A stretch of 22,484 nt of DNA, from the IMG/VR virus record IMGVR_UViG_3300009514_000095, positions 1 to 22,484 of that record, one strand, 5' to 3'. Within the stretch, counting starts at the first letter, position 1; each line of letters opens with the position of its first letter. Shown in pieces: positions 19,406 to 21,331 of this stretch. The translations under genes were made by a program, and so were the position numbers. The stretch comes from a virus. The notes beneath the pieces are model-generated. The model saw only the letters and a list, made by a program, of their open reading frames with translations. It searched no databases and was not told the DNA's origin.

Positions 19406-20002
19406 TTAAAATATTTTTTTCCAAAAAACACAAAAAATCAAAAATAGAATCGAAAAAATTACAATCCATTTCCAAGATTTACCCATGTAATTACAAAACT
19501 TTTCAAACAAAGTTAGTTCAGCAGGTCGCACGACTTGAATAGGTGTTGTTGTTTCGCCTTGTATAGTTTTTTGGTATATTTCTATGTCATAAGACAAGAC
19601 GCCATTAGAGAGCCTTATATTGAGCCTATAAAGCGAATCTAATATTAATGTGTCAATCGAAATACTATTTACCACGTACTTTATTTTGTCCTTTGTTATA
19701 TATTTCAGCATTTCCATCGTGTCAATCTTAGTATATACACTATCTTTTATATCTAATTTTGGTACAATTACCTCGAACGGCACATTGATAGTATCTGCTT
19801 TTAATAACTCCGGGCACTTCTTAACCACTCTTTCCAGTTTTCTGTTGCATTTATTTTTATGCCTCAATTCTTTTGAAATAAAAGGATTGCAGGACGTGAA
19901 TAAAATTATTAATAGAATTATTCCTATTACAACAAAGCCGATAAATAGACAACCCTTCTCTAAGGTAGTGTCCATTTCCTTAAAATCATCATCTGACATC
20001 AT
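19406..20002 (-). CDS. Two-TM membrane protein with lipobox-like motif, unknown function
   Basis: This 198-aa protein has an N-terminal membrane helix (about residues 17-36) running into LFTSCNPF, a sequence like a lipobox with Cys38. A soluble, strand-rich central domain spans 40-170 and includes RKLERVVKKCPELLKADTI. A second membrane helix lies near 177-193 with the tail WKKIF. The 16-residue stretch before the first helix is long and acidic for a signal peptide, so lipoprotein processing is doubtful. The centre is probably extracytoplasmic. A spanin-like or superinfection-exclusion role is possible but unproved. The start overlaps the previous gene's stop (ATGA on the minus strand). Confidence 0.6.
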   Translation of the reverse strand: MMSDDDFKEMDTTLEKGCLFIGFVVIGIILLIILFTSCNPFISKELRHKNKCNRKLERVVKKCPELLKADTINVPFEVIVPKLDIKDSVYTKIDTMEMLKYITKDKIKYVVNSISIDTLILDSLYRLNIRLSNGVLSYDIEIYQKTIQGETTTPIQVVRPAELTLFEKFCNYMGKSWKWIVIFSILFLIFCVFWKKIF

Positions 20003-20214
20003 GCCATTTTATTTAATTGTTTGACTGACTTTCGTATGTTACCATAAAGCCGATAACCTCTAAACACGCCTGTCTTTCGAGGTTGTTCCATATATTTCAC
20101 CTCAGCTTCTTCATAGAAGCGTTCACCGATTTTTTGGGCAGCCTTAAACAGTTTCCCATTTCTCCAACCGTATCTAATACCATTGAAGGAAAATTCTTTT
20201 TCGTATTTGTTCAT
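19999..20214 (-). CDS. Small basic protein, unknown function
   Basis: This 71-aa protein (MNKYEKEFSFNGIRYGWRNG...) is rich in Lys, Arg and Tyr, with FNGIRYGWRNGKLFK at the start and RGYRLYGNIRKSVKQLNKMA at the end; nucleic-acid binding is possible by charge. It lies just after the second attC-like element, with a 26-base AT-rich leader (20215-20240), and is coupled by an ATGA overlap to the membrane-protein gene. In the cassette model it was the original neighbour of the 111-aa gene at 20942-21277 before the methyltransferase cassette came in. Confidence 0.6.
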   Translation of the reverse strand: MNKYEKEFSFNGIRYGWRNGKLFKAAQKIGERFYEEAEVKYMEQPRKTGVFRGYRLYGNIRKSVKQLNKMA

Positions 20215-20240
20215 ATTATATTTTATTATTTACTTTTTTT

Positions 20241-20304
20241 AGCTAACAGCAACTAAAAATAACCTACGGTCGCTTACGCTTATTTTTAGTTTCGTGTTAT
20301 GCAC
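20241..20304 (-). other. attC-like palindromic site A, downstream of the methyltransferase gene
   Basis: Read on the minus strand, the site has outer box GTGCATAAC, spacer ACGA, stem arm AACTAAAAATAA, a 17-base loop, the perfectly complementary 12-base arm, spacer GCT, then outer box GTTAGC. The layout is like an integron attC: R'', spacer, arm, loop, arm, spacer, R', 64 bp. Its two outer boxes do not pair well with each other, but each pairs with a box of site B (20861-20935). The R'' edge lies five bases past the methyltransferase stop. There is no obvious single extrahelical base in the stem, so it is not a textbook attC. Confidence 0.6.
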
Positions 20305-20868
20305 AAGCACTACTGACCGCTTCCAAAGATAGATTTCATTCCCATTAACACTTTGGTTTCGCCCTTATATCCTTTCTCAAAATGAAAGTTCCCGACCGAA
20401 AACCCAAAAGGAAAATCTATCAATCGACCGCTTCCGTAAATGATTATGCTTTTAATTCCACCGTATTTATTTATCATATCCATAATTATTTGCCTTTGAA
20501 ATATCTTGTTTGTTGGTACTAAGTAGCTCACATTATCAGCGAGTTCAAAGCCTTTTCTTAAAAAGTCTTCAAATATGCTGTAAGGTGGGTTTCCTATTAT
20601 CCAATCTACTTTTTCGTTGTGCATAAAAAAGTCTTTGCCCTCTCGTATTTCGCAATAATCACGATTATCTTCAGGCAAATAATTATAAAACGCTCCATCT
20701 CCTTTACAAGGGTCAAGGCATTTTCCTTTTGGGTTTAGCCAACGCACAATATGCTCACTAACATAGGTCGGTGTATAAACTATGTCCGCAGGTAAAACGG
20801 GCATATCCCAAAGTGTTGTTTGTATATTCATATCAAAAATTCGTTAATAAAACCGTGCCAGTGCATAA
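20247..20868 (-). mobile_element. Putative integron-type gene cassette carrying a DNA methyltransferase
   Basis: The minus strand reads G, then TTATGCAC at the cassette start (20868 downward), a 37-base leader, one ORF, and GTGCATAAC plus hairpin ending in G at 20247. If the segment is circularised at these G/TT points, its own outer boxes become GTGCATAAC and GTTATGCAC, perfect nine-base complements. If it is removed, the remaining boxes become GGCTAAC and GTTAGC(T), complementary over six bases. One ORF, about 620 bp, short leader, and palindrome immediately after the stop are all typical of integron cassettes. No integrase gene lies in this window. Confidence 0.6.
20310..20831 (-). CDS. 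Small adenine-N6 DNA methyltransferase
   Basis: The 173-aa protein shows a class I SAM-dependent fold. YTPTYVSEHIVRWL precedes motif I, LDPCKGDGAF (39-48), the variant of FxGxG that binds SAM. Motif IV, NPPYS (81-85), is the catalytic signature of N6-adenine methyltransferases. It is short for the family and seems to lack a target-recognition domain, so specificity is unclear. No restriction endonuclease is adjacent, so it is an orphan, possibly giving the phage protection from host restriction. It is the only ORF of the putative 622-bp cassette and is transcribed from upstream; no clear promoter of its own is seen in the 37-base leader. Confidence 0.82.
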   Translation of the reverse strand: MNIQTTLWDMPVLPADIVYTPTYVSEHIVRWLNPKGKCLDPCKGDGAFYNYLPEDNRDYCEIREGKDFFMHNEKVDWIIGNPPYSIFEDFLRKGFELADNVSYLVPTNKIFQRQIIMDMINKYGGIKSIIIYGSGRLIDFPFGFSVGNFHFEKGYKGETKVLMGMKSIFGSGQ

Positions 20869-20935
20869 CTGCAGCTATACGCAACCTTGCCGCAGGCGCA
20901 ACACAAGGCTGCGCATAGCTGCATCCGTTAGCCAC
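20861..20935 (-). other. attC-like palindromic site B, upstream of the methyltransferase gene
   Basis: On the minus strand, box GTGGCTAAC (20935-20927) and spacer GGA are followed by a 20-base arm (20923-20904), a 14-base loop, and the complementary arm (20889-20870) leading directly into G and TTATGCAC (20869-20861). The stem is continuous with two G-T pairs. It is much more GC-rich than its surroundings. It begins six bases after the stop of the 20942-21277 gene. The outer boxes mismatch each other but match those of site A, the key sign of cassette insertion. Confidence 0.6.
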
Positions 20936-20941
20936 AATGCC

Positions 20942-21277
20942 TTAGTGTTGCTGTATTATTTCAGTATCAGTTAAAATCCTTTCAGAATTTGCGATTGAAC
21001 GTAAGTGAAAATAATCACCACTATCATTAGATAAATGCAAGGCAGTCCACCACTTTTTACCATTCCTTTCTGTAAGTCTTACCCATTTGTACATATAATA
21101 GTTTTTCCTTCCTCTGCCTTGCTCGTTCACGCCTTTAAAGTGAAATATCTTTATAACCGCAAATTCCTTAATCTCTTTTCCATTTTTATCAAAGTATGGT
21201 GCTTCAATCTCAGCACAGTTGCTTACATTGTGTATAGCAAATGCCTTTTCGTTTTTATCTAAGTTATTTTTTGTCAT
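20942..21277 (-). CDS. Protein of unknown function, first gene of the minus-strand operon
   Basis: This 111-aa soluble protein starts MTKNNLDKNEKAFAIHNVSNC. In-frame ATGs also occur at 21301 and 21289. The first lies within the promoter -7 element (21299-21306) and so cannot be the start; the second would be almost leaderless, so 21277 is preferred, leaving a leader of roughly 15 bases. Features are strand-rich segments (KEFAVIKIFHFKGVNEQGRGR) and an aromatic core (KNYYMYKWVRLTERNGKKWWTALHL), but no recognised family. Its stop is followed six bases later by attC-like site B. Confidence 0.6.
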   Translation of the reverse strand: MTKNNLDKNEKAFAIHNVSNCAEIEAPYFDKNGKEIKEFAVIKIFHFKGVNEQGRGRKNYYMYKWVRLTERNGKKWWTALHLSNDSGDYFHLRSIANSERILTDTEIIQQH

Positions 21278-21298
21278 GATTTCTTTCATATTTTCAAG

Positions 21299-21331
21299 CA
21301 AATATACAAATAATTTAATTAAAAAAGCAAA
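21299..21331 (-). promoter_or_regulatory. Bacteroidetes-type promoter for the minus-strand operon
   Basis: On the minus strand, TTTG (21331-21328), a 21-base spacer and TATATTTG (21306-21299) match the TTTG/TAnnTTTG consensus of Bacteroidetes primary sigma factors. Transcription should begin near 21292. It drives the operon that includes the cassette. It lies close to a plus-strand -7 element at 21349, so the two directions may interfere. Confidence 0.75.

Follow-up and report, generated by a model that had tools for sequence, protein, structure and literature searches.

A methyltransferase cassette in a phage fragment and a probable IntI-independent integron lineage in the class Bacteroidia

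The window analysed here is a virus record of 22,484 bp, taken over its whole length. Its tape-measure protein is closest to those of Cellulophaga, Bacteroides and Flavobacterium phages, and for this reason a host in the class Bacteroidia is likely. A DNA methyltransferase gene, assigned by PHROG 799 (3.5e-28) and Pfam N6_Mtase (7e-5), lies between two phage genes, all on the same strand (Table 1). The flanks displayed for the relatives of the gene on its 5' side contain neither a methyltransferase of this kind nor a hairpin. The extreme end of the contig (22229-22474) carries a tandem-repeat ORF (MSNHRLMSNDCL).

Table 1. Features in and around the methyltransferase cassette (positions in the window).
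Feature	Position	Strand	Description
Neighbour 3' of unit	19999-20214	minus	Phage gene, 71 aa; no relative in viral contigs
Site A	20239-20304	+	AT-rich hairpin; left box TTAGCTAAC (20239-20247), right box GTTATGCAC (20296-20304)
Site A arms	20251-20262/20280-20291		Pairing 12/12
Alternative unit (earlier reading)	20247-20868	minus	622 bp; site A as own site; same boxes
Likeliest mobile unit	20297-20927	+	631 bp; site A right-box TT to site B right-box G
DNA methyltransferase ORF	20310-20831	minus	173 aa; limited to the catalytic core, with DPCKGDGAF and NPPY motifs
Leader	20832-20868	minus	37 nt; right box to start codon
Site B	20861-20935	+	attC-like; left box GTGCATAAC (20861-20869), right box GTTAGCCAC (20927-20935)
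Site B arms	20870-20889/20904-20923		Pairing 18/20
Neighbour 5' of unit	20942-21301	minus	Phage gene, 119 aa; relatives L008-L010, 56-63% identity

The two palindromes that a sequence-only reading of this DNA had placed on either side of the methyltransferase, sites A and B, are both present. Their minus strands fold better than shuffled DNA (z -3.4 and -4.5), and the outer boxes of the two sites are separated by 48 and 57 nt. Within each hairpin these boxes pair incompletely. The pairing is found across the gene, where the right box of A matches the left box of B at 9/9 positions and GGCTAAC of B matches GTTAGCT of A (minus strand) at 6/7, so that the swap of boxes claimed in that reading is confirmed. 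Such a swap is the signature of a putative cassette insertion at G/TT. A CALIN is defined by at least two attC sites within 4 kb without IntI; the two attC-like hairpins of the window lie 571 bp apart and only B falls in a recognised family.

The pair was evaluated with a scanner that looks for stretches of 100-3000 bp framed by a pair of hairpins whose 9-nt boxes match (hairpin-box-gene-box-hairpin). This scanner allows bulges and was used in place of a simpler first one, which missed class 1 and chromosomal arrays; as a control, it recovered the class 1 integron cassettes known from the P1-type phage MH445380, a derivative of P1. In the window it finds the A/B pair, with hairpin scores of 12.4 and 16.4. 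From 600 first-order shuffles of the window, 11 pairs were obtained at a loose threshold, and no pair combined a 9/9 box with a score of at least 11 for each of its hairpins. An Rfam search of the region gave chance matches only, and site A has no relatives among the phages or viral contigs searched. Two ordinary hairpins, such as terminators, could carry boxes that match by chance around a gene acquired by illegitimate or homologous recombination, and the AT-rich site A is picked up by none of the attC models tried (R1 and R2, below). Nonetheless, given that no shuffle equals the A/B pair and that unrelated phages carry the same gene flanked by matched boxes of other sequence, this explanation is extremely improbable.

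Methyltransferases 87-95% identical to that of the window occur in L001, L002, L006 and L003/L011, of which L003 is the same prophage as the Lacibacter luteus contig L011. In L002, L003 and L006 the gene is bounded by GTTATGGGC...GCCCATAAC, where the window has GTTATGCAC...GTGCATAAC. It lies between box-matched hairpins in L002 and L006, with boxes unlike those of the window, and between a 5' hairpin and the 3' box of that hairpin in L011/L003. The double swap is repeated in L002 (GGGCAAC...GTTGCC), L006 carries a second cassette (GTTAGTACC...GGTACTAAC), and another hairpin of the cassette type lies downstream in L001. Related methyltransferases thus recur with the same layout and other boxes, both in unrelated phages and within a prophage of Lacibacter, which indicates an integron-type cassette. 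The box-matched relatives (L002, L006 and L011/L003) also bear out the earlier proposal that an attC-like cassette recombined at G/TT into a phage operon.

The relatives also inform on the extent of the cassette. The hairpin 5' of the gene is common to L002 and L006 while their 3' sides are unlike, and L011 is devoid of a 3' hairpin, which points to the 5' hairpin, site B in the window, as the one belonging to the cassette. The mobile unit is therefore probably 20297-20927 with site B travelling, rather than 20247-20868 with site A as had been read before; the boxes of that reading stand, its extent probably does not, and both frames predict the same boxes for the empty site. The putative cassette has G/TT bounds, complementary swapped boxes, a single ORF, one attC-like site and a short leader, found at the length of 37 bases given in the earlier reading. 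This leader resembles those of other phage cassettes (e.g., GTTATGCACTGATGCGG in L087), and a search of viral contigs with the leader pattern returned no contigs beyond three already known. Site A is the probable acceptor site. The predicted empty site, in which TTAGCTAAC and the hairpin of site A would be followed by GTTAGCCAC and then by base 20936, was sought in related phages through the flanking genes and none was found for this phage, the relatives of these genes being too distant or non-syntenic.

The methyltransferase is antisense to the + frame of the unit 20297-20927. Indeed, a cassette gene antisense to its attC-like site, with the hairpin 5' of the gene, is seen in the window, L001, L002, L006, L011, L030 and L085-L087, opposite to the chromosomal arrays described below (L177-L209), where 24 of 25 cassette genes have the usual sense. 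In the viral contig L087 (4590-4778), a site-B-type hairpin directly follows the apparent 3' end of a tRNA gene (GGTTCGATTCCCGGC), and is itself followed by GTTATGCAC and a window-like leader.

Clusters of attC sites (CALINs) with methyltransferases have been reported in virulent phages, including Polaribacter phage P12002L, and five of the six phage attC sites tested were recombined by IntI1 (Qi et al. 2023, PMC9892861). Given these phage methyltransferase cassettes, that of the window is a further member of a known phenomenon. P12002L and the window both concern Bacteroidota phages, DNA methyltransferase cassettes and hairpins with matching boxes, but the boxes and hairpins themselves are different. 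The minus strand of P12002L (L030) carries, within 29100-32300 and 37190-38960, four or more cassettes of one gene each whose boxes match over 8-9 nt, among them gp35, gp38, gp53 (Mom-like) and gp54. This exceeds the two methyltransferases that had been described for the attC cluster of this phage. The authors of that study (PMC9892861) assumed IntI, whereas the attribution to an IntI-independent system is made in the present analysis.

The core of site B has an exact match of 25-26 nt in chromosomal sites of the class Bacteroidia. It was found in 18 of 395 genomes of the class, in 8 of these 18 over at least 25 identical bases. The chromosomal elements have the form xxxxTAAC-AGCGTGTAAGC...GCCTACACGC-AAAAC-GTTA and frame dispersed cassettes, such as one with a GmrSD-type restriction gene in L107. 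Among viruses, an exact stretch of 20 nt of site B is shared with three viral contigs, and no relatives were found among the annotated phages searched. In 21 sites of this family, with the window excluded, 9 of 10 stem pairs show compensatory changes and 81% of the cells are paired, versus 23-33% after sliding.

A covariance model (R2) built from these 21 sites recognises site B in the window with 21.6 bits (E=0.0019), on the + strand only and with the next best place at 8.8 bits, a score that is partly circular because several of the training sites were retrieved by their similarity to B. Site A gave no match. Outside the window, R2 gave 14 matches at E<=0.01 beside Xer-like recombinases, at loci that were not used for its training, and no match at this threshold in control loci; the 379 kb surrounding 20 IntI genes were likewise free of matches. 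The attC covariance check suggested in the earlier reading was done with a home-made model (R1) of Bacteroidota IntI arrays and phage sites, and was negative: sites A and B reached at best 7 bits, under the window background of 10.8 bits, with a model that is weak even on known sites (aadA1, E 3.3; TJE1, E 4.7). These sequence comparisons demonstrate that the boxes of the putative cassette are swapped, that its layout recurs with other boxes in other phages, and that site B is homologous to chromosomal sites of Bacteroidia.

Of 396 genomes sampled from the phylum, 105 have the IntI integrase (TIGR02249 above cut-off); none of 14 controls has it. Within the class Bacteroidia, which holds Lacibacter, it was found in 1 of 198 genomes, and it is absent from all 18 genomes that bear the site-B element. 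Cassette arrays were observed at 10 of the 20 IntI neighbourhoods examined (L065-L083), in the part of the phylum outside the class of Lacibacter. The sequence-only reading had taken an integron-type integrase to be the mover of the methyltransferase, which in the IntI sense would be a classical integron cassette served by a true IntI of the host or of a co-resident element. The layout and the G/TT logic do match IntI cassettes, IntI with arrays is present elsewhere in the phylum, and one attC site of P12002L is recombined by IntI1 (PMC9892861). Nonetheless, the rarity of IntI in the class and its absence beside site-B elements, the failure of R1 to find A and B and that of R2 to find any site at IntI arrays make this explanation unlikely, and the proposed mover was not retained.

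The window fragment (22.5 kb) encodes no recombinase, and thus neither IntI nor a member of the Xer-like family described here. Among the phage pieces examined, a recombinase lies next to a cassette in L086 only: this viral contig carries a site-B-type hairpin and a methyltransferase-like cassette (GTTATAGCC...GGCTATAAC), with a tyrosine recombinase of 277 aa located 58 nt beyond the cassette. Relatives of this recombinase were found in 79 of 149 genomes of the class. The search for an intI-like recombinase proposed earlier has therefore given nothing on the window itself and, in likely hosts, a Xer-like family that is not IntI. Around 34 loci of these recombinases, 25 strong cassettes lie on the 3' side and none on the 5' side (313 versus 240 kb), with 24 of the 25 cassette genes on the strand of the recombinase; 19 control regions of the same genomes (378 kb) contain no strong cassette. 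Mrr and OLD-like genes are part of the cargo. Strong arrays are found at only 10 of the 34 loci and are absent from some subfamilies (e.g., the three G301 copies); given that array-bearing and array-free members are mixed, the recombinase family and the array do not coincide. Lacibacter was considered as a donor and rejected, since its distant member of the family (36%) has no adjoining array. An array cassette of L203 (6699-8050) encodes a protein that is itself tyrosine-recombinase-like.

IntI proteins carry an insertion between the beta-hairpin Lys and the HxxR motif that is needed for attC binding. The distance from KGKDR to HxLRH is 58-61 aa in all 35 Bacteroidia recombinases and 100 aa in all 28 IntI sequences, and the 42-residue insertion is absent from the former. 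The Bacteroidia recombinases are set apart from IntI in the tree by a branch supported at 100/100, with the Xer-like rows being very long-branched and unsure in their placement. The best NCBIfam match, NF040815 ('site-specific tyrosine recombinase/integron integrase'), scores 208 bits, below its cut-off of 220, and TIGR02249 scores 193 bits, below 265; the scores are under the cut-offs for XerC, XerD, XerA and the integron integrase. Judged by motif spacing, tree and profiles, the array recombinase is not IntI. Smyshlyaev et al. 2021 (PMC8138268) state that conservation of the insertion is incomplete within their integron-like subgroup of Xer-type recombinases. The Bacteroidia recombinase shares its core-binding and catalytic domains with 'simple' Xer-type recombinases, and differs from them by its cassette arrays and by an attI-like site 3' of its gene.

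This attI-like motif, TATAAACAA/GTTAnnnnn, lies about 90-110 nt 3' of the stop codon of the recombinase, and is present in 16 of the 34 loci, whereas none of the 282 ORFs used as controls has it. At six loci, a hairpin site located 242 to 3,796 nt downstream, which is the expected first attC, has a left box that agrees 9/9 with the GTT box of the motif. Two metagenome contigs, L179 and L180, end 2-3 nt past the crossover G of the attI-like site, which suggests strain variation at the presumed crossover point. Contigs ending within 2.5 kb do so on the 3' side of the recombinase in 16 of the 34 loci and on the 5' side in one, as expected if the arrays vary within the sampled population. Between a plasmid of Chryseobacterium sp. 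SNU WT5 (NZ_CP041688.1) and one of C. oryzae, the identity is 95-96% over the integrase and attI through GTT; past GTT it falls to 27.5%, which is the chance level, and different genes come next. With what appear to be two insertions into a single site, this pair provides the best evidence for the crossover at GTT. On the Acinetobacter indicus plasmid p80-1-2-tetX3 (L233, 5001-7320), a recombinase shares 46% identity with the array recombinase of Bacteroidia, and in Acinetobacter plasmids tet(X3) starts about 190 nt past the recombinase gene. The search of L233 for a matching attC beyond tet(X3) was negative, and the position of this gene may be a remnant of a first cassette.

A host XerC/XerD or a phage integrase, acting on boxes that are like Xer half-sites by chance and with no dedicated system, would be in line with the boxes (GCATAA/TTATG), which resemble dif half-sites, and with the Xer-like character of the Bacteroidia recombinases themselves. 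It does not account for cassettes that lie 25 to 0 on the 3' side of a single recombinase family, which has an attI-like site of its own, nor for boxes 48-127 nt apart instead of the 6-8 bp of dif, and is very unlikely. The same spacing separates the window cassette from the pdif modules of Acinetobacter, which are Xer-flanked gene modules with 28-bp sites made of XerC and XerD half-sites and a spacer of 6-8 bp. Both consist of single genes framed by inverted recombination half-sites, but the boxes of the cassette stand around a hairpin and the pdif arrangement is not found.

The Bacteroidia loci have the elements of an integron platform, namely an integrase gene, an attI, an array and a putative crossover at G/TT. 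Like the chromosomal integrons with IntI, they combine a tyrosine recombinase, attI and cassettes with the 9-nt box rule and a hairpin attC with a covarying stem; unlike these, the recombinase is devoid of the 42-aa insertion and is co-oriented with the cassettes, with attI 3' of its gene. The genomic comparison establishes that site-B-type sites belong to this putative platform, with its Xer-like recombinase lacking the IntI insertion, its attI-like site and its co-oriented array of single genes. What is new is the candidate platform independent of IntI, given that phage methyltransferase cassettes were already known. IntegronFinder 2.0 reported a single complete integron in the Bacteroidetes proper, in Salinibacter ruber, and no paper describing an IntI-independent platform in Bacteroidia was found in a literature search of the open PMC set.

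The phage cassette is rather likely to be a stray member of this Bacteroidia system, moved by a recombinase provided in trans. The methyltransferase and the site B hairpin would form the mobile cassette. Site A, a hairpin or attC-like site serving as acceptor, would have received this cassette at its G/TT, among the late genes of a phage whose host would belong to the class Bacteroidia. A Xer-like recombinase of the host or of another element would move the cassette by cutting between G and TT, presumably on folded single strands as with the attC sites of IntI, and the methyltransferase may shield the phage DNA from host restriction. Within the window, site B has the characters of the site family and site A does not, and no recombinase with attI lies in cis. 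Several observations count against this explanation: the gene is antisense to the site in the phages, opposite to the chromosomal cassettes; there is no recombinase on the fragment; site A is missed by R1 and R2; strong arrays are limited to part of the recombinase loci; and the Chryseobacterium plasmids contain no site recognised by R2.

Bacteroidia are dominant in the human gut and in many waters and soils, and are held to be nearly integron-free. Our analysis makes it likely that this class has an integron lineage of its own, with a Xer-like integrase lacking the IntI insertion, a 3' attI-like site and co-oriented arrays, from which phages pick up methyltransferase cassettes; restriction and OLD-type ATPase/nuclease genes are among the array cassettes of this lineage. 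Integron searches are keyed to IntI and to proteobacterial attC models, and would therefore miss such a platform. If the lineage is real, the integron function arose, or survived, without a domain held essential for integrons. The platform makes it testable whether the IntI insertion is truly required for recombining folded single-stranded sites. If it works, a large share of the cassette pool has been overlooked, including defence genes and the counter-defence methyltransferases of phages.
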